Of a stretch of 24,932 nt of DNA, positions 2,854 to 20,690 are shown piece after piece; positions within the stretch are counted from its first letter, which is position 1; each line of letters begins with the position of its first letter. Where the stretch lies: positions 1-24,932 of IMG/VR virus record IMGVR_UViG_3300045421_000154. One strand, written 5' to 3'. Position numbers and translations under genes: made by a program. Under the pieces are notes generated by a model. It was given only the letters and a program-made list of their open reading frames with translations. It did no database searches and was not told the origin of the DNA. Source of the stretch: a virus.

Positions 2854-3109
2854 ACATATGAATCCAACAAATAAACTTATTGTTTCGGAGCCAGTTAGGG
2901 GCTTTACAGAGAGAGACACTCACTCAAAGGCTATTTTGAACACGGATATTGATTCACTTTTGAAGTATAAGATTCAAAAGCGCAAGTTAATCGATATAAA
3001 TAAGAATAGTTCAGAAATAGACGCGGTAAAGTCCGAAATCAATCAGATCAAGTGCGATCTAACAGAAATCAAAACCTTATTGCTAAAAATCACTAAAGAG
3101 AGAGAATAA
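2846..3109 (+). CDS. Small coiled-coil phage protein
   Basis: This small protein of 83-87 residues overlaps or abuts the end of the preceding gene. Two starts are possible. TTG at 2846 has a GAGGG Shine-Dalgarno-like site at 2832-2836 with good spacing, while ATG at 2858 has no obvious site. The C-terminal third (after SSEIDAV) is a heptad-patterned helix ending KTLLLKITKERE, likely a coiled coil. Small proteins with this type of C-terminal helix occur beside fibre genes in pelagic T4-like phages; the function is unknown to me. It sits between two virion genes, so a structural or assembly role is plausible. Confidence 0.6.
   Translation: MLKHMNPTNKLIVSEPVRGFTERDTHSKAILNTDIDSLLKYKIQKRKLIDINKNSSEIDAVKSEINQIKCDLTEIKTLLLKITKERE
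2995..3002 (+). promoter_or_regulatory. Possible late promoter (TATAAATA) inside the small coiled-coil gene
   Basis: An exact TATAAATA octamer, the T4 late promoter consensus, lies 110 bases before the fibre gene at 3112. It is inside coding sequence, so it may be chance in AT-rich DNA. Confidence 0.3.
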
Positions 3110-5793: not shown

Positions 5794-6414
5794 ATGTCAG
5801 TTTTAAAATGGATAAAAGTAATAGATGGGAAAAATTTAGGACCTGTTTATTTTTCTAATGAAAATGGAGTTCTAGATTTTGAAAATCAAATTTTTGATAA
5901 AGATACTCCCGATGAAATATTAATTAAACACAATCTTTACAAATTAAAAGAGTGTTTACCTCCAGAGAATGTTAGATATTTCATTTCTAAACCTCCAATT
6001 TATAGAATACTGCAAGACGGATCATTAACTGTAGTTGAGGAAGTTGAGTATCAAATTTTTAACATTGAAGATATCAAACACGAAAAAATTCAACAGTTAT
6101 ATTACGATAAAGATAGACTGTTAAAAGATGGAATTTGTTTTAAAAATAAAATATTTGATTTAAGATTCAGAAATCTTGCTCATTTATCAATAATTTCAAC
6201 TCTAATATCATTTAAAAAATTTCCAAACAACTTTAAATGGTTTACAGTAGATGGTGAGTTAATTGATATGACAGAAAATGAAATGTTAGAATTGATTGAA
6301 CTTGCCGCAGAAAAAATTATTGACATTGAAACTAGAGCCGCAAAAGTTTTAGATCAAATTAATGCAATAACTGATTTAGAAGAATTAAATAAATTTGAAC
6401 CAAGAATAACATAA
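5794..6414 (+). CDS. Tail fibre assembly protein-like, DUF4376-like C-terminus
   Basis: This is a 206-residue protein. The C-terminal 60 or so residues contain a FKWFTVDGE strand-turn followed by a long helix and the ending INAITDLEELNKF. This is the layout of DUF4376 domains, often found in phage tail fibre assembly chaperones and fibre-linked proteins. The N-terminal part (KWIKVIDGKNLGPVYF) is not recognised. Its place directly after the glycine-rich adhesin supports a role in folding or assembling that protein. A GAGGTGA Shine-Dalgarno site lies about ten bases before the ATG. Base composition becomes strongly AT-rich from here, unlike the preceding and following virion genes. Function is inferred. 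Confidence 0.55.
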   Translation: MSVLKWIKVIDGKNLGPVYFSNENGVLDFENQIFDKDTPDEILIKHNLYKLKECLPPENVRYFISKPPIYRILQDGSLTVVEEVEYQIFNIEDIKHEKIQQLYYDKDRLLKDGICFKNKIFDLRFRNLAHLSIISTLISFKKFPNNFKWFTVDGELIDMTENEMLELIELAAEKIIDIETRAAKVLDQINAITDLEELNKFEPRIT

Positions 6415-6415
6415 A

Positions 6416-6994
6416 ATGTATTTTGATGAAAAACCTGAATTTTTAAATTCTGAAATAGTTGGCAGCACAAAATCAAATCTAGAATATAAACTGAAAAATA
6501 TAGAAAAATTTAAAAAATACTTGAGAGGTAAAGTTCTAGATATTGGCTGTTGTGACGGACGATGGTCCGCTTGGGCATTAGATAATGGGGCAAAATTTGT
6601 TCATGGTATTGACAAAGAAATATCTTACATAAATAAATCAAATGAAATTTTTTCAAAATATTTTGACAAATCAAATTATAAATTTGAAGCAATAAATTGG
6701 AAAAATTTTAAATCAACTAAAAAATATGATTTGATTTTTTTATTTGGTATATTATACTACAATGATCAAGAAAAACTTATAGAAACTTGTAGTTCTTTAT
6801 CAGATACGATCTTGGTAGATACAGTTTATTCCCAAGAAAAAAGAGAATCATTTTTAACAGAAGATCATATTGGACAAGATAGAGTTATGATAACTTTATC
6901 TAATGAAGAATTGTTTAAACTTTTTGAAAATTACAATTATAAAATTGAAATAATATCTTGTAATGAGAGAATTTTTTTTGTAGCAAATAGGTGA
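6416..6994 (+). CDS. Class I SAM-dependent methyltransferase
   Basis: This 192-residue protein has a Rossmann-type methyltransferase signature. Motif I is VLDIGCCDGRW (residues 40-50), the acidic motif II residue is in HGIDKE (Asp66), and a motif IV-like strand is YDLIFLFGILYYND. There is no target-recognition domain and no DPPY/NPPY motif, so a DNA adenine methyltransferase is unlikely; small-molecule, sugar or protein methylation fits better. It starts one base after the stop of the upstream gene, so the two are translationally linked. The DNA is extremely AT-rich (6661-6720 has only 10 G/C in 60). The substrate is unknown. Confidence 0.75.
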   Translation: MYFDEKPEFLNSEIVGSTKSNLEYKLKNIEKFKKYLRGKVLDIGCCDGRWSAWALDNGAKFVHGIDKEISYINKSNEIFSKYFDKSNYKFEAINWKNFKSTKKYDLIFLFGILYYNDQEKLIETCSSLSDTILVDTVYSQEKRESFLTEDHIGQDRVMITLSNEELFKLFENYNYKIEIISCNERIFFVANR

Positions 6995-7003
6995 TAAAAC
7001 ATT

Positions 7004-7792
7004 ATGAAAATTGCGTTTCTTGCCGGACTGCCTAGATCAGGATCAACTTTACTTGCATCTTTACTTTCACAGCATCCAAAAATTAAAGTAAGTGAAGCGT
7101 CAACATTACTTCCCCTCATAAACACAGTAAGAGAGTTTTGGTCGACTGCACCAAGACACAATGCTGTTTCAAAACGAGACAGATTAGTTCCAGTTTTAAA
7201 CTCAATAACCAAATCTTATCATTCAGAATTTGATGGAGTTGTTGTTGACAAGCATAGAGAATGGCCATTTTATTTGGACGTTGCAGATAAAATTTTTGGG
7301 TATTCACCAAAAACAATTATCACAGTAAGAAATCCATTAGAGTGTGCGGCATCGTTTGAACGACTAAAGCAAAAAGAACCTGAAGTATATTCTCAGGTAG
7401 AAAAACACACATACTCCACCAGATCAACAACTTATGACAGGGCAAATTCTATGTTTGCGCCTGATGGTAGTATAGGTTTGGCGTATTCTGCAATTTATGA
7501 AGCATCAATTGTTCAAGGTAGACACAAAGATATGTTGTTTGTAGATTATGATAAATTGTGTTTGCAACCTAAAAACGAAATGAATAGGGTGTTCAATTAT
7601 CTCAATCTTGATTCTCATCAAATCTCCACAGAAAATTTAGACAACGCAGAAGAACAAAATGATGAATTCTACGGACTATATAAATTACATGAGATACAGA
7701 AGTCTGTCAGAAATACAAATAAAGATTTAGACAGGTTGCAAATTTTTGCCGATAGATTTCAAATAGAGGAGTTTTGGAAAGAATGGACATAA
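7004..7792 (+). CDS. Sulfotransferase (PAPS-dependent family)
   Basis: This 262-residue protein has both cofactor motifs of sulfotransferases. The 5'-phosphosulfate loop is GLPRSGST (residues 8-15). The 3'-phosphate-binding segment is VRNPLECAASFERL, with Arg109 and Ser117 placed as in the family. A later LFVDYDKLCLQPKNEMNRVF segment matches the usual C-terminal helix pattern. The length fits a compact bacterial or phage sulfotransferase. The enzyme would move a sulfonate group from PAPS to a hydroxyl or amine; the acceptor cannot be read from sequence. There is no signal peptide or membrane segment, so it should act in the host cytoplasm. The APS-kinase-like gene two positions downstream could supply PAPS. 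Confidence 0.82.
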   Translation: MKIAFLAGLPRSGSTLLASLLSQHPKIKVSEASTLLPLINTVREFWSTAPRHNAVSKRDRLVPVLNSITKSYHSEFDGVVVDKHREWPFYLDVADKIFGYSPKTIITVRNPLECAASFERLKQKEPEVYSQVEKHTYSTRSTTYDRANSMFAPDGSIGLAYSAIYEASIVQGRHKDMLFVDYDKLCLQPKNEMNRVFNYLNLDSHQISTENLDNAEEQNDEFYGLYKLHEIQKSVRNTNKDLDRLQIFADRFQIEEFWKEWT

Positions 7793-8334
7793 TTGATAAT
7801 AGTAGATACATAACAAAAATCGATATCAAACCCCTATTTGATTTTTGCGTTAGTCTGGAAGATGAAGATTGGGAAGAATTTACCTTTAGGCAAAATAATT
7901 TTAAAGCGCATTCATCAACAAAAACAGTTGCCGCAATTTTTCCAGACAGGTCTAATTTTCCTAATATGAAAAAAATGACATTCAAACACACCGAACAAAT
8001 GATGACGTTGTTTGATCCTGCCATTCAAGCCGCAACAAATTTTTATAATGAAAAATTTGTAGTCACTACCGCAATGATTGTTCTTTTAATGCCAGATGAA
8101 AATGTTGAAGAACATTCTGATACTCATCCGTATTTTGGACTCACTCACAGATTTCATATATGCATACATGGTGATTATGATAATATGGATTTTTTAATTC
8201 GCGGCATGAAAGTTGATATGAATTTGGGTGATGTTATTGAAATAAATAATAGACTTCCTCACAAAGTTGTGTATCGAGGAAAAAAACCTAGACTAAACGC
8301 AATTTTTGATTTGCTTCCTGCATCTAAACTTTAA
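7783..8334 (+). CDS. Aspartyl/asparaginyl beta-hydroxylase-like 2OG-Fe(II) oxygenase
   Basis: This 183-residue protein starts at ATG 7783, chosen over TTG 7774 because AGAGGAG at 7765-7771 is correctly spaced only for the ATG. It overlaps the sulfotransferase by 10 bases. A double-stranded beta-helix oxygenase signature is visible: iron ligands His111-Ser-Asp113 in EEHSDTHPYFGLTHRFH, distal His160 in INNRLPHKV, and Arg170 ten residues later for 2-oxoglutarate. The GDVIEINN...H pattern is typical of AspH-type enzymes. The reaction would be hydroxylation of a protein side chain or small molecule using O2 and 2-oxoglutarate. AspH itself uses two His without the acid, so the HxD here is a small difference. 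The target is unknown. Confidence 0.75.
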   Translation: MDIIDNSRYITKIDIKPLFDFCVSLEDEDWEEFTFRQNNFKAHSSTKTVAAIFPDRSNFPNMKKMTFKHTEQMMTLFDPAIQAATNFYNEKFVVTTAMIVLLMPDENVEEHSDTHPYFGLTHRFHICIHGDYDNMDFLIRGMKVDMNLGDVIEINNRLPHKVVYRGKKPRLNAIFDLLPASKL

Positions 8335-8347
8335 ATGGAGATATAAT

Positions 8348-9202
8348 ATGGCTGTAAAAATTTTAATTATGGGACTTCCTGGATCAGGAAAAACATACTT
8401 TGCCGAAAGACTAAAATCATATTTGGAACTTAATAGCAACTTTAAAAATATGCCTTTGAACAAACTGGCGGAATATGAAATGCCGCCTTTATATTGGAGT
8501 GCTAAGGTCGAATGGTTTAATGCTGATGAAATACGAAAACGATATAACGATTGGGATTTTAGCAAAGACGGAAGAATTAGACAAAGTATAAGAATGGCCG
8601 ACTTTGCTTTAAGATCAACTTCAGATTATGTGATTTGTGATTTTGTTGCTCCTCTACCAGAAATGCGTAATAATTTTAAAGCAGACTGGACTATCTGGAT
8701 GGATACAATTGATCAGGGAAGATATGAAGATACCAATAAAGCATTTGTACCGCCAGAAATTTATGATTTCAGAATCAATGAACAGAATGCCGAGAAGTGG
8801 GTATCATTTGTTGGAGAGCATATTATTAATCAAAAACGAAGACCAGTTTTTGATTGGAAAAAAGAAACTGTTCAGATGTTAGGTCGTTGGCAACCATGGC
8901 ATGAGGGTCATCGTGCATTATTTGAAAGATCAATTAAAAAGACTGGTCAGGTTGTAATTCAAATTAGAGATTGTCAAGGATGGCAAGGTAGTAATCCTTT
9001 TGAAATTGAAAAAGTCAAAAATTTTATTAAAAAAGACTTGGATATGCTTTATCAGGGACAATATGAAATACAAGTGGTCCCTAACATTGTAAACATCACA
9101 TACGGCCGTGATGTTGGATATAAGATTGAACAGGAAACATTTGATGAAAAAACTCACTCTATTAGTGCCACAAAAATTCGCAAACAAATGGGTATTGAGT
9201 GA
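8348..9202 (+). CDS. APS-kinase-like P-loop kinase fused to HxGH nucleotidyltransferase
   Basis: This 284-residue protein starts at ATG 8348, with GGAG at 8337-8340 as ribosome site. The N-terminal domain (about 1-165) has the Walker A loop GLPGSGKT (9-16). An FNADEIRKRYNDWDFSKDGR segment resembles the adenylylsulfate kinase D-G-D..R....FS..DR region, although the acidic doublet is altered. The C-terminal domain (about 174-284) has GRWQPWHEGH, the HxGH nucleotidyltransferase motif (His185, His188), an NPF step and ISATKIR (272-278), as in NadM and related adenylyl/cytidylyltransferases. The order kinase then nucleotidyltransferase matches animal PAPS synthetase, but the second domain is far shorter than ATP sulfurylase. 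Making PAPS for the nearby sulfotransferase is plausible. A nucleotide or NAD-salvage role (NadR-like) is the main alternative. Confidence 0.65.
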   Translation: MAVKILIMGLPGSGKTYFAERLKSYLELNSNFKNMPLNKLAEYEMPPLYWSAKVEWFNADEIRKRYNDWDFSKDGRIRQSIRMADFALRSTSDYVICDFVAPLPEMRNNFKADWTIWMDTIDQGRYEDTNKAFVPPEIYDFRINEQNAEKWVSFVGEHIINQKRRPVFDWKKETVQMLGRWQPWHEGHRALFERSIKKTGQVVIQIRDCQGWQGSNPFEIEKVKNFIKKDLDMLYQGQYEIQVVPNIVNITYGRDVGYKIEQETFDEKTHSISATKIRKQMGIE

Positions 9203-9423
9203 ACAAGTATCACGTTAGATTCAATACTAAACATAATGGCAGTTCATTGGTTTGGCGTGTTTTTGAAAATGGTGTAGAACATTTGGCTTCAGATGTTCGC
9301 ATTCTAGGCGAAACTTTTACCGAATGCACCGAAGAATATGGCGAAACCAAGTGGAACATTGCGTGTCGTGGTCGTATGTTATGGGTTGATAGTGTTGCTG
9401 TAATTGTGTCCGATAAAGACTGA
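9199..9423 (+). CDS. Small conserved T4-like marine phage protein, function unknown
   Basis: This 74-residue protein starts at GTG 9199 and shares a GTGA overlap with the stop of the kinase/nucleotidyltransferase gene, indicating coupled translation. The motifs YHVRFNTKHNGSSLVWRVFE and TKWNIACRG are familiar to me from a short hypothetical protein found in many cyanophages of the T4 type. It has no signal peptide or membrane segment. Composition is mixed charged and aromatic, consistent with a small compact beta protein. Its position at the end of the accessory cassette and before the terminator makes it the last gene of that transcription unit. No function can be stated. Confidence 0.7.
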   Translation: MNKYHVRFNTKHNGSSLVWRVFENGVEHLASDVRILGETFTECTEEYGETKWNIACRGRMLWVDSVAVIVSDKD

Positions 9424-9514: not shown

Positions 9515-9522
9515 TATAAATA
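9515..9522 (+). promoter_or_regulatory. T4-type late promoter TATAAATA upstream of gp13
   Basis: An exact TATAAATA lies immediately after the terminator and 28 bases before ATG 9551. It matches the T4 late promoter recognised by the gp55/gp33 system. It probably drives the 13-14-15-16-17 block. Confidence 0.8.
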
Positions 9523-9550: not shown

Positions 9551-10294
9551 ATGGCAAAACCAACCTCTAGAGAAGACTTCATTGAATACTGCCTAAAAAA
9601 GTTAGGCAAGCCTGTTCTTGAAATCAACGTTGACAATGATCAAGTTGAAGACAGAGTTGACGAAGCACTCGCATACTATCACGATTATCATTTTGATGGT
9701 TCCGAAAAAACTTATCTAATGTATCAGATTACTGAACAGGATCAAACAAACAAGTATCTGACAATACCTCAGAACATCATCGGCGTCACAAACATTTTTG
9801 ACATTGGTGATTCTTACTCTACAAATAATCTTTTTAATCTAAGATATCAAATTTCATTGAATGATCTATATGCATTCAATTCGACAAGTTATGCGCCATA
9901 CTATATGGCTCTACAAAACGTAGCACTTGCTGAAGAACTTTTTGTTGGCAAACAAGCAATCAGATACAATCGTCATATCAACAAACTTTACATTGACATG
10001 GCATGGCTAGAGAAAACAACTGTTGGCGAATACATCATTGTTGAAGCATATCAACTAGTTGATCCTGAAGTTTATACGGACGTTTGGACAGACCGCTGGT
10101 TGCAGAATTATGCAACACAATTGATCAAAAGACAATGGGGCGACAATCTGAAAAAATTCGAAGGCATGACAATGCCAGGTGGAGTTACATTCAACGGACA
10201 GAAAATTTGGGAAGAAGCAAACGAAGAAATTCGTAAGTTAGAGGAAGAAATGATCAACACTTATTCTCTTCCTGTTTCAGACATGATCGGCTAA
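9551..10294 (+). CDS. 13: Neck protein gp13
   Basis: This 247-residue protein is recognisable as T4-like gp13 from the N-terminal segment KKLGKPVLEINVDNDQVEDR followed by VDEALAYYHDYHFDG, and the later KRQWGDNLKKFEGM. gp13 forms the neck with gp14, closing the filled head below the portal and providing the docking site for the tail. The protein is somewhat shorter than T4 gp13 (309 residues). ATG 9551 is preceded by AAAGGA and by a late promoter. gp14 follows four bases after the stop, the usual T4 arrangement. Confidence 0.88.
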   Translation: MAKPTSREDFIEYCLKKLGKPVLEINVDNDQVEDRVDEALAYYHDYHFDGSEKTYLMYQITEQDQTNKYLTIPQNIIGVTNIFDIGDSYSTNNLFNLRYQISLNDLYAFNSTSYAPYYMALQNVALAEELFVGKQAIRYNRHINKLYIDMAWLEKTTVGEYIIVEAYQLVDPEVYTDVWTDRWLQNYATQLIKRQWGDNLKKFEGMTMPGGVTFNGQKIWEEANEEIRKLEEEMINTYSLPVSDMIG

Positions 10295-17125: not shown

Positions 17126-18781
17126 ATGGCGATAAAATTATTTGGATATAAAATTGGTAAAGAAGAAGACTTACCAGATATAAAGTCTTTTGTAGCACCT
17201 AAAGAAGATGCTGGTGCCGTAGCAGTATCAGGCGGTGGTGTATACGGAATCTATACTGATCTTGAAGGCACGGTTCGTAATGATGCAGACTTAATCAAGC
17301 GATATAGAGATATGGCAAATCAGCCCGAATGTGATGCGGCGATTGAAGACATTGTAAATGAATCTCTTGTTTTTGACGAAGGCAATTATCCAGTTCAAAT
17401 TATTTTAGATAAGCTAAAGCAGCCAGAATCGATCAAAAAGAAAGTTCGTGAAGAATATTATCATATTATGAAATTGCTTGATTTTAACAATCAAGGATAT
17501 GACATTTTTAGACGATGGTACATTGACGGAAGACTTTATTATCATATGATGATTGATGAAAAAAATCCTCGACATGGACTTAAAGAAGTGCGATACATTG
17601 ATCCTCGCAAGATTCGTAAGATTAAAGAAGTCAAAAGATCAAAGCCGCAATTAACGAATCGACCAGATGTTCCTGAAATGAATGAGTATTTCATTTACTC
17701 AAATAAAGGATTTAGTAACGATACTAATCATAGCATTAAAATTGCGACCGATTCTATCTGCTATGTTCATTCTGGCATTACAGATAAAGATGGTAGAATG
17801 GTTATCTCTCATCTGCACAAAGCAATTAAAACTCTGAATCAGTTGCGTATGCTTGAAGATGCAACTGTAATTTATCGAATCTCTCGTGCGCCAGAACGAA
17901 GAATTTTTTATATCGATGTTGGTAATCTGCCAAAAATGAAAGCCGAACAATATTTGCGAGAAATCATGCAAAAGTATAAAAATAAACTCGTGTATGATGC
18001 ACAGTCAGGTGAGATTCGTGACGATAGACGATATCAAACAATGTTAGAAGACTTTTGGCTGCCCAGAAGAGAAGGTGGCAAGGGAACTGAAATCACAACA
18101 CTGCAAGGCGGCCAAAATTTAGGTGAAATTGATGATGTTTTATACTTTCAGAAAAAATTATATAAATCTCTGAATGTTCCAGTTTCTCGATTGGAGTCTG
18201 ATACTGGATTTTCTCTAGGTCGCGCATCAGAAATTACTAGAGATGAGCTAAAGTTTTCTAAATTTATTCGGCGTTTGCGTTTGAGATTTTCTCATTTGTT
18301 TGATCGTTTACTTGAAACACAATTGTTGTTAAAAGGCATCTGTACTCGTGCAGAATGGAACATGATAAAAGAAGAAATCTCCTATGATTTTATTAATGAT
18401 ATGTATTTTTCCGAGTTAAAACAAACCGAAATTTTGAAAGAACGTATAGGCATGTTGAGTGATGTTGACAGCTATGTTGGCAAATATTTTTCTTCAACTT
18501 GGATTCGTAAAAATGTTTTACGTCAGACTGAAAATGATATCGAGCAAATTGATAACGAAATGAAAGAGGAATCTTCTGACGTTGATAATGAATCTGAAAT
18601 TGCACAAATTCCTCAACAACAGGCATCATTTGAAGAACATCTTCCGCAAGAAGCAATAATCAATGTAAAAAAAGAAGAAAAAGAATCAATTGTTTCTGAT
18701 ACCGATCAAATAGAATTGGCCAAATCAATGACTAAATTCTTTGACACATTAGTTGAAGAGGCAAAGGGTGACAAAGAATAA
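17126..18781 (+). CDS. 20: Portal vertex protein gp20
   Basis: This 551-residue protein is a standard T4-like portal. It has GVYGIYTDLEGTVRND, the NQPECDAAIEDIVNE block, NNQGYDIFRRWYIDGRLYYH, EVRYIDPRKIRKIKEV, DATVIYRISRAPERRIFYID and LNVPVSRLESDTGFSLGR, all conserved portal segments. It is slightly longer than T4 gp20 (524). The C-terminus is acidic and low-complexity. Twelve subunits form the DNA entry channel, seed prohead assembly and dock gp17. AGGAAG precedes ATG 17126. The end overlaps the collagen-like gene by 14 bases. Confidence 0.95.
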   Translation: MAIKLFGYKIGKEEDLPDIKSFVAPKEDAGAVAVSGGGVYGIYTDLEGTVRNDADLIKRYRDMANQPECDAAIEDIVNESLVFDEGNYPVQIILDKLKQPESIKKKVREEYYHIMKLLDFNNQGYDIFRRWYIDGRLYYHMMIDEKNPRHGLKEVRYIDPRKIRKIKEVKRSKPQLTNRPDVPEMNEYFIYSNKGFSNDTNHSIKIATDSICYVHSGITDKDGRMVISHLHKAIKTLNQLRMLEDATVIYRISRAPERRIFYIDVGNLPKMKAEQYLREIMQKYKNKLVYDAQSGEIRDDRRYQTMLEDFWLPRREGGKGTEITTLQGGQNLGEIDDVLYFQKKLYKSLNVPVSRLESDTGFSLGRASEITRDELKFSKFIRRLRLRFSHLFDRLLETQLLLKGICTRAEWNMIKEEISYDFINDMYFSELKQTEILKERIGMLSDVDSYVGKYFSSTWIRKNVLRQTENDIEQIDNEMKEESSDVDNESEIAQIPQQQASFEEHLPQEAIINVKKEEKESIVSDTDQIELAKSMTKFFDTLVEEAKGDKE

Positions 18782-20690
18782 AGATAATTTAACTATCGAT
18801 CAAGCAATTTCTGTAGCAACTTCAGTTGCATATACTAAAAAAGAAATAGCAAAACTTAGAGAAGAATTAAAGTCTGCAGAAAAAATAGTTGAGATCGTTC
18901 AAGGTCCACCGGGGACACAAGGCCCTGTTGGGCCCAGAGGTATTATGGGTATACAGGGCCCTCAAGGACCTCAAGGACCAAAGGGTAATATTGGAGAGCA
19001 AGGAGAGCAAGGAGAGCAAGGACCAAAAGGTGAGCAAGGTCTGCAAGGAATTCCTGGAGAAATTGGTCCTATCGGAGAAACAGGAATAAGAGGTCCTAAA
19101 GGTGACAAAGGCGACAAAGGCGACAAAGGCGATAAGGGAGATGCCGGTGAAGTTGGAGCAATAGGTTCTAAAGGATCTCAAGGCGACAAGGGAGATAAAG
19201 GCGATAAGGGAGATAAAGGCGATAAAGGCGATAAAGGAGACCGAGGCGATAAAGGTGATTCTGGAAAAAATGGTCTAGATGGAGAAGTGGGGCCGGCCGG
19301 TCCAGTTGGTCCAATAGGAAAACAAGGACCTCAAGGTCCTCAAGGGCCGAAAGGAGATACTGGAGAGCAAGGACCGCAGGGAATTCAAGGTCTTCCGGGT
19401 AAGGACGGTGACAGTAAACAAGTAGAACAAAAATTTGAAAAGTTCAAGTCTGTTTTAGAAAATGATCTAAGTCAATACAAGAATAAACTCAACGCACTTG
19501 TATCAAGTTCACTAGCAAACGATGCATGGAAATTATCTGGTGGCGGTGAAGTCAATCTAAGATATCTAGACGACATTGATCGAAATAGTATTCAAGATGG
19601 TTATGTTTTAAGTTATGATGAAATAACACAAAAATTTGTTTTTGTCTCACCAACAGCAGGCTCTTTTACTCCTACAGATGTAAAACAAATTTTTGCCGAA
19701 GTTAAAAATGCAGAATCAATAACAATTACTAAAGGACAAGCAGTTTATCTTTATGCTGCTACTGGTAATCGAGCATCAGTTAAACTTGCATATAGTGTGG
19801 GCGATTCAACTTCTGCAAAAACACTAGGACTTGTTTATAGTTCAAGCATTACGCCGGGCGGCACAGGTTTGATTATTACTCAGGGTGTATTAACCGGCAT
19901 CAATACGTCGCAGTATCAAGAAGGCAATACGTTATATCTTGCTAATACTCCTGGCCAGTTAACTGCAATTAAACCTTATGCACCGAACCGGTTAGTTTAC
20001 ATCGGAGTAGTTGAAAACACAAATCAAGGACAAGGACAGATTTATGTTCGTCTCCAAAATGGATATGAATTAAATGAAATACATGATGTAAACATTAATC
20101 ATACTGTTCCGCTGTCAAATGCTGATATTTTAGTTTATAATTCTTCATATGGTGTATGGGAAAATAGACCAATAAATTATCTTGGATTATCAACTTCAGA
20201 TACATTAGCAAGAACAACTGCTAATTCGGCATACACACAAGCAAATAATGCAACATCATTAGCATCCAGTGCATTTCATCAAGCCAACACAGCCACAACA
20301 TTAGCCCAATTAGCATATGATGCTGCTAATACTGCCTCACCTCCTGTTACACAAGATTCTCTAAATTTATTATTCAATAACGCGTCTGCAATTCAATATA
20401 AGATTGTTACTATGAATTCAAATGCACAAACTATTCTTGCTACTGCAACAGATATTAATCAAATTGATAAAATTATTGGTGTTTTAGACGATGGAGGAGA
20501 AACTGTTTCTTTAGGACTATTAGAAAATCAGGCGTGGGCATGGACACCAGATCAATCGTTGTTTCTTGGTTCAAATGGAAATATAGTAACAACTTCTACT
20601 ATAGATGGTGCGGCATTTTCTTTAAAAATTGGCTATGCAATAACGTCTACAAAAATTTTTATTAAAATTGGAACACCAATTTTATTATAA
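18768..20690 (+). CDS. Collagen-like virion fibre protein
   Basis: The start is taken as GTG 18768 (GAAGAGG at 18755-18761 is well spaced); TTG 18753 is the alternative. The product is 640 residues. A helical N-terminus (KKEIAKLREELKSAEKIVE) is followed by 57 uninterrupted Gly-X-Y triplets (18903-19415), then a predicted coiled coil (VEQKFEKFKSVLENDL). After that comes a beta-rich region with VTL-type repeats and YGVWENRPI, an Ala/Asn/Thr-rich helix (NSAYTQANNATSLA) and a C-terminal domain. Collagen stalks with flanking coiled coils are known trimeric phage fibre parts. This one lies between gp20 and gp67, where T4 has no such gene. It is probably a head- or tail-attached fibre; location is inferred. 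Confidence 0.8.
   Translation: MTKNKDNLTIDQAISVATSVAYTKKEIAKLREELKSAEKIVEIVQGPPGTQGPVGPRGIMGIQGPQGPQGPKGNIGEQGEQGEQGPKGEQGLQGIPGEIGPIGETGIRGPKGDKGDKGDKGDKGDAGEVGAIGSKGSQGDKGDKGDKGDKGDKGDKGDRGDKGDSGKNGLDGEVGPAGPVGPIGKQGPQGPQGPKGDTGEQGPQGIQGLPGKDGDSKQVEQKFEKFKSVLENDLSQYKNKLNALVSSSLANDAWKLSGGGEVNLRYLDDIDRNSIQDGYVLSYDEITQKFVFVSPTAGSFTPTDVKQIFAEVKNAESITITKGQAVYLYAATGNRASVKLAYSVGDSTSAKTLGLVYSSSITPGGTGLIITQGVLTGINTSQYQEGNTLYLANTPGQLTAIKPYAPNRLVYIGVVENTNQGQGQIYVRLQNGYELNEIHDVNINHTVPLSNADILVYNSSYGVWENRPINYLGLSTSDTLARTTANSAYTQANNATSLASSAFHQANTATTLAQLAYDAANTASPPVTQDSLNLLFNNASAIQYKIVTMNSNAQTILATATDINQIDKIIGVLDDGGETVSLGLLENQAWAWTPDQSLFLGSNGNIVTTSTIDGAAFSLKIGYAITSTKIFIKIGTPILL
18903..19415 (+). repeat. Collagen Gly-X-Y repeat tract (57 triplets)
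   Basis: 513 bases encode 57 Gly-X-Y triplets without interruption. Eleven are GDK (runs of four and six plus one more), and many others are GPQ, GEQ and GPK. Only a few have Pro in the Y position (GPP, GIP, GLP), so stability would come from Lys-Asp/Glu salt bridges rather than hydroxyproline. The DNA is locally repetitive (GGCGATAAG-type nonamers). Confidence 0.95.

Follow-up and report, generated by a model that had tools for sequence, protein, structure and literature searches.

The 24,932-nucleotide stretch of viral DNA analysed here ('the window') raises the question of whether a phage can encode both a sulfotransferase and the enzymes that supply its donor, PAPS. The window corresponds to a T4-like phage's structural region (the names gp13 to gp21, from position 9551 on, rest on gene order, on homology to the annotated T4-like phage DLP_6 and on cluster synteny), and the cassette that raises the question lies after fibre-like genes and ahead of gp13, with all genes on one strand (Table 1). 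The sulfotransferase gene, an oxygenase gene, a gene for a fusion of an APS-kinase-like domain with a nucleotidyltransferase domain (NT), and a small downstream ORF overlap or nearly abut. The oxygenase gene sits between the sulfotransferase and fusion genes and is missing from most related cassettes; relatives of the small ORF lie directly 3' of the fusion gene in 12 other loci, with 46-82% identity (the identical contig L001 not counted). The T4-type late-promoter −10 motif TATAAATA occurs 7 times in the whole window, vs. 1.9 occurrences expected, and because two of its occurrences flank the cassette, at 2995 and 9515, we infer that the cassette is probably transcribed late, together with the fibre genes. 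A collagen-like repeat protein (GxxGxx) is encoded elsewhere in the structural region, past gp20 (18753-20690).

Table 1. Features of the cassette and its surroundings, in window coordinates.
Feature	Coordinates	Strand	Basis
T4-type late promoter −10 TATAAATA, nearest upstream of cassette	2995..3002	+	motif match
Fibre/virion-associated protein, DUF4376-like C-terminus	5794..6414	+	phrog_17968 virion structural protein 4e-8; phrog_1141 tail fibre 7e-5
SAM methyltransferase, 192 aa, cassette neighbour	6416..6994	+	Methyltransf_31 8.9e-9
Sulfotransferase, 262 aa	7004..7792	+	Pfam, PHROG, fold
Asp/Arg beta-hydroxylase-like 2OG-Fe(II) oxygenase, 182 aa	7786..8334	+	PF05118 4.2e-5, barely over cut-off
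APSK-NT fusion, 283 aa, predicted compact PAPS synthetase	8351..9202	+	profiles of both halves
APS-kinase-like domain	8351..8848	+	P-loop GLPGSGKT 8372-8395; NADEIR, DFS..GRIRQ, FVAP...R motifs
NT domain, predicted ATP sulfurylase	8849..9199	+	GRWQPWHEGH 8882-8911, YGRDVGY 9101-9121, ISATKIR 9161-9181
Small conserved ORF, 74 aa, GTG start	9199..9423	+	often immediately 3' of fusion in relatives
T4-type late promoter −10 TATAAATA ahead of gp13, bounds cassette unit	9515..9522	+	motif match

The sulfotransferase ORF matches Pfam Sulfotransfer_3 (1.7e-14) and Sulfotransfer_1 (3e-10), both over the curated cut-off, and matches phrog_27463 (1e-39). It contains a 5'-phosphosulfate loop of the PRSGSTxL type (GLPRSGST; 7025-7048) and a 3'-phosphate motif (VRNPLECAAS; 7325-7354), and residues G8, P10, R11, G13, R109, and S117 show no variation across 22 relatives. 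The best fold matches of the AlphaFold model (pLDDT 84; pTM 0.85) are tyrosylprotein sulfotransferases and 3-O-sulfotransferases, with a Foldseek value of 1e-8 to TPST2. We conclude, from sequence and predicted fold, that the product is a sulfotransferase with both PAPS motifs. TPST1/2 are its nearest solved-structure relatives by sequence and fold. However, identity to TPST is only 20%, and Ala33 of the phage protein aligns (phmmer) with the catalytic Glu of the TPST2 GEETR motif; the acceptor type therefore cannot be transferred from TPST. A pattern search with the window's sulfotransferase as its only source recovered a single locus, since the sequence diverges too fast, and an alignment-based profile is needed; a 340-aa TPR/glycosyltransferase-like group that had been chained into the sulfotransferase cluster was excluded before structure prediction and counting. 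Sulfotransferases of the same Sulfotransfer_3 family are found in cyanophages and an OM43 phage (S-SKS1, S-SRM01, and S-SCSM1), where their function has been called unclear (PMC10580990); the stretches fetched for these phages contain no fusion gene, and the host may supply PAPS.

The fusion gene most likely starts at ATG 8351, which has a GGAG motif upstream, rather than at TTG 8306, and the fusion is present in at least 263 viral contigs. As a single sequence, its N-terminal half scores just short of the PF01583 cut-off (6e-4; 20.3 bits vs. 21.1 bits); most cellular homologues exceed that cut-off. A profile of the fusion family aligns in the N-terminal half, motif by motif, with solved APS kinases (1.2e-7). 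APS kinases are also the top matches in a fold search with the fusion model, and the APS kinase of phage phiRSL1 ranks first in the viral fold search. The motifs GLPGSGKT, NADEIR, and FS..GRIRQ are divergent but align with the P-loop, DGDxxR, and FS..DR..N of APS kinases; D59, R62, F70, R75, and Q78 are invariant, and the aligned motifs include the residues that hold APS in APS kinase structures. Profile and fold thus establish that the N-terminal half is an APS-kinase-like domain; its activity, that is, conversion of APS to PAPS, is inferred.

The C-terminal half (~115 aa) is a HIGH-type nucleotidyltransferase for which the nearest named family is NadM (profile 8e-8), and its HxGH and ISxTxxR motifs (GRWQPWHEGH and ISATKIR) are invariant or almost so. 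Its scores are far under the curated NadM cut-offs (28.1 bits vs. 127 for PRK01153; 26 bits vs. 181.2 for TIGR01527). Between the NPF and ISGT motifs it is ~24 residues shorter than archaeal NadM (NadM 62-110 vs. query 232-256); Arg206, invariant in the NT, is Gly in the NadM of DLP_6, and YGRxVG is a motif of the NT's own. Profile comparison of the NT with a Pelagibacterales Sat (PF01747 type) gave a probability of 1.8, with only the ISGTKIR motif shared. In the structural model the kinase half is good and the C-terminal domain weak, with pLDDT below 50 at residues 247-262, and the fold search with this weak domain found no match specific to the NT half; because the model is poor in this region, we make no structural claim for the NT substrate site.

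To assess linkage, we fetched 80 viral loci via the fusion and a control set via gp13, and compared dereplicated loci that include gp13 and extend for 5 kb or more on the fibre side, counting a sulfotransferase when it lay within 10 kb. A sulfotransferase is present in 16/16 T4-like loci with the fusion vs. 2/39 without it (Fisher p=5e-12). The sulfotransferase profile was derived from fusion loci and may favour detection there. Over the full set of 80 fusion loci, 42 show a sulfotransferase in the available stretch, and the rest are mostly from other phage types; conversely, in sulfotransferase loci from viral contigs, the fusion or the NT lies within the fetched stretch in only 13-14 of 80. 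In 24 distinct loci with both the fusion and a sulfotransferase, median pairwise identity is 77.5% for the fusion vs. 30.5% for the sulfotransferase, and a near-constant fusion beside a variable sulfotransferase is the pattern expected for a common donor enzyme serving changing acceptors. We conclude that in T4-like loci the two genes belong together, as a matter of genetic association.

These results bear on a sequence-only reading of the window, which had claimed a sulfotransferase with both PAPS motifs and, one gene further on, an APS-kinase-like P-loop protein, in overlapping or near-abutting genes, and which would have been refuted had the P-loop domain grouped with nucleoside kinases or had the genes failed to co-occur in relatives. 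The sulfotransferase held by Pfam, PHROG, fold, and invariant residues; the kinase held, with its start most likely at ATG 8351, and by profile and fold it groups with APS kinases; the gene arrangement held for 7004-9423, which the late promoters bracket; and co-occurrence in relatives was confirmed by the comparison of T4-like loci. That reading missed the HIGH-type nucleotidyltransferase in the C-terminal half of the fusion.

Related cassettes carry other genes. In many, the fibre end encodes an ADP-heptose pathway (L029, L031, L034, and L070; for example, L031:7864-8962), with matches to rfaE_dom_II (5e-29), rfaE_dom_I (5e-40), and a heptose epimerase (1e-62), along with a cupin and FkbM-type methyltransferases, and it is therefore possible that the glycan under construction contains heptose. 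A carbamoyltransferase gene (PF02543/PF16861) adjoins the fusion gene in L028 and L030 (5477-6958), a hint of further decorations of the same target. In another phage type (L016, L021, and L069; clusters c46 and c64), P-loop proteins that resemble divergent sulfotransferases, with no Pfam match, adjoin the fusion.

A wider search of viruses for the NT yielded 114 distinct sequences, 9 fused to APS kinase and 105 standalone. For 98 of the 105 standalone copies, there is a same-strand APS-kinase-family gene no more than 1 kb away, and 36 of these 98 pairs also have a sulfotransferase within 3 kb. Several partner kinases are canonical CysC proteins (TIGR00455 228.6 bits for L228 and L413, and 266.7 bits for L357, vs. 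a cut-off of 138.7); two contigs found with the sulfotransferase profile, L210 and L228, encode the NT as its own gene, adjoined by a canonical APS kinase and by a sulfotransferase. The gene order sulfotransferase-kinase-NT recurs (L351, L420, L342, and L401), kinase-NT fusions occur in the window and L333, and a fusion in reverse order, NT-kinase, occurs with a canonical kinase in L344 (apsK 219 bits). In L357 the canonical APS kinase adjoining the standalone NT (7045-7992) has an extra C-terminal domain, which by eye appears HAD-like. Since the NT has repeatedly joined unrelated-looking APS kinases, in both orders, its simplest role is to supply their APS.

Only five sequenced isolates carry the fusion. 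In Stenotrophomonas phage DLP_6, a Sulfotransfer_2 protein is encoded at another place in the genome; the Casjensviridae phages Bhz60, Suzuki, and Clavibacter phage 33 encode a Sulfotransfer_4 protein two genes upstream of the fusion; and AhaSv has, at the same position, a weaker sulfotransferase match, below cut-off. A NADAR gene lies between the Sulfotransfer_4 gene and the fusion gene in the Casjensviridae phages (L086/L087:2562-3002 and equivalents). DLP_6 also encodes a true NadM-Nudix (PRK05379; 7e-98) and an annotated nicotinamide phosphoribosyltransferase, such that a role as NMN adenylyltransferase would be redundant for its fusion.

Known enzymes that adenylylate sulfate are Sat or CysDN. 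By profile, the NT lies outside both families and also fails the NadM cut-offs. The closest cellular relatives of the fusion are chromosomal genes of SAR11 and SAR86 (41-62% identity), where kinase and NT are often encoded by two neighbouring genes, in that order. Among 25 fusion-bearing SAR11 and SAR86 genomes, Sulfotransfer_3 is present in 21, Sat in 2, and a convincing CysD in none. Across 247 Pelagibacterales genomes, we find the NT in 194, a sulfotransferase in 185, Sat in 13 (12 over cut-off), and CysD in 10. CysD is present in 0/194 genomes with the NT vs. 10/53 without it (p=1e-7, kinship ignored); the cellular genomes are incomplete and related, and p-values are optimistic. The CysD ORFs of these ten genomes fall into two size classes, ~500 and ~300 aa, suggesting at least two lineages. 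CysN-CysC fusions (ORFs of 590-639 aa) are present in the ten CysD genomes and in G109, which also lacks the NT; a further CysC match lies in a 613-aa ORF of an NT-bearing genome, G266. In SAR86 there is one CysD genome among 203 (G424), and it lacks the NT, as predicted beforehand. A CysD with an N-terminal extension of ~190 aa, ahead of a CysN-CysC fusion, is found in some SAR11 genomes and one SAR86 genome (L462:2898-4385 and L463:3034-4521), and an extended form common to the two groups suggests gene transfer.

Sat is not exclusive with the NT in SAR11 (NT in 9/12 Sat genomes), and may possibly have another role there. The association of the NT with sulfotransferases in Pelagibacterales is not significant (77% vs. 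66%; p=0.11), and a sulfotransferase is still present in 26/42 genomes with neither the NT nor CysD/CysNC. We infer that the NT and APS-kinase module, as one or two genes, is the likely supplier of PAPS in SAR11 and SAR86 cells.

The reading that we favour, with a probability of about 0.78, is that the NT represents a hitherto unrecognised ATP sulfurylase, non-orthologous to the known ones, and that the fusion works as a compact PAPS synthetase supplying a variable sulfotransferase. According to this hypothesis, the C-terminal NT would adenylylate sulfate (ATP + sulfate to APS + PPi), the N-terminal APS-kinase domain would phosphorylate the 3'-OH of APS to give PAPS, and the neighbouring sulfotransferase would pass the sulfuryl group of PAPS on to an acceptor; we infer that this is most likely a glycan or a protein, belonging either to the virion fibres or to the host envelope. 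The sequence families, the fusion, the association of the NT with APS kinases, and the association of that pair with sulfotransferases are established; both catalytic activities are inferred, and ATP sulfurylase function rests on partner genes and exclusion of CysD. The sequence-only reading had linked donor supply to transfer, a guess made from the kinase half alone: the link is supported, with activity inferred, and the NT half, with its partners elsewhere, extends it by making a full supply from sulfate to PAPS likely. Its guess at the target (fibre, host glycan, or lipid) remains inference. A bolder form of our hypothesis, which we also consider likely, is that the NT, at ~115 residues, joins Sat and CysDN as a third, non-orthologous kind of ATP sulfurylase and that, together with an APS kinase, it provides PAPS in many viruses and in the majority of SAR11 and SAR86 cells.

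One alternative is NAD salvage, in which the fusion would be NadR-like, with the NT making NAD from NMN and the kinase phosphorylating nicotinamide riboside, and the cassette would counter host NAD depletion. In its favour, the best named matches of the NT are NadM models, phage NadM/NadR systems are known (PMC9503650), a NADAR gene adjoins the fusion in Casjensviridae, and no clear NadD match was found in the SAR86 genomes searched. However, both profile and fold place the kinase half with APS kinases, and elsewhere the NT is paired with canonical CysC; the NT lacks ~24 NadM residues and has Arg at the position that is Gly in the DLP_6 NadM; DLP_6 already has dedicated NAD enzymes; and NadD is present in most SAR11 genomes tested. 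We therefore regard NAD salvage as very unlikely. Assignment of the NT to CoA biosynthesis, as CoaD, was rejected, with CoaD over cut-off in 22/25 genomes and detectable in 25/25.

Hardly more credible is transfer of some other group, in which the NT would adenylylate another anion or metabolite, the kinase would 3'-phosphorylate the product, and the sulfotransferase-fold enzyme would move that group. One model for such a route is the phosphoramidate pathway of Campylobacter, in which an APS-kinase homologue takes part; APS-kinase homologues with other substrates exist, and donor and acceptor are both unproven in the phage cassette. Against this, some partner kinases exceed the curated apsK cut-off, the transferases are drawn from several sulfotransferase families, and canonical CysD does not occur together with the NT in SAR11 or SAR86. 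The remaining possibility, that the genes are chance neighbours, with the sulfotransferase using host PAPS and the fusion doing an unrelated job, could appeal to the cyanophage sulfotransferases in stretches without the fusion and to the low frequency (13-14/80) of the fusion or NT in fetched viral sulfotransferase loci. It is made very improbable by the contrast of 16/16 vs. 2/39, by the many sulfotransferase-kinase-NT clusters, and by the isolates, which repeat the pairing with different sulfotransferase families.

Among marine bacteria, SAR11 and SAR86 count as some of the most numerous; known sulfate-activation genes are usually absent from them, yet many encode sulfotransferases. If the PAPS-synthetase reading is correct, a gene now annotated as an NAD enzyme, plus a kinase, would be their missing PAPS source, sulfation in these cells and their viruses would be directly testable, viral lists that count the NT gene under NAD metabolism would be wrong, and many phages would appear to carry a full set for sulfating a chosen target. 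Virus-encoded sulfur-activation genes have been reported, for example in Lake Baikal viromes (PMC8066274); viral lists of cysC, sat, cysD, and cysH name cysC and nadM as separate, unrelated functions and, in the passages bearing on the point, draw no link between them or to sulfotransferases. We found no earlier description of the NT-APS kinase fusion or of a SAR11/SAR86 PAPS route in the open-access literature searched, and novelty is provisional.

NadM (PRK01153/TIGR01527) and NadR have the GRxQPxHxGH and ISxTxIR motifs in common with the NT. However, the NT has ~24 fewer residues in the NMN-binding half, a G-to-R change at 206, and the YGRxVG motif, and it is paired with an APS kinase rather than with a Nudix or ribosylnicotinamide kinase domain; the domain order is the reverse of that in NadR. 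PAPSS1/2 and bacterial Sat-CysC and CysN-CysC likewise fuse an APS-kinase domain to a sulfate-activating partner, and human PAPSS has the same kinase-first order as the window's fusion. The window's fusion differs from all of these in that its kinase is divergent and is joined to a NadM-like HIGH domain of ~115 aa, which detectably resembles Sat only in the ISGT motif and has no relation to CysD or CysN.
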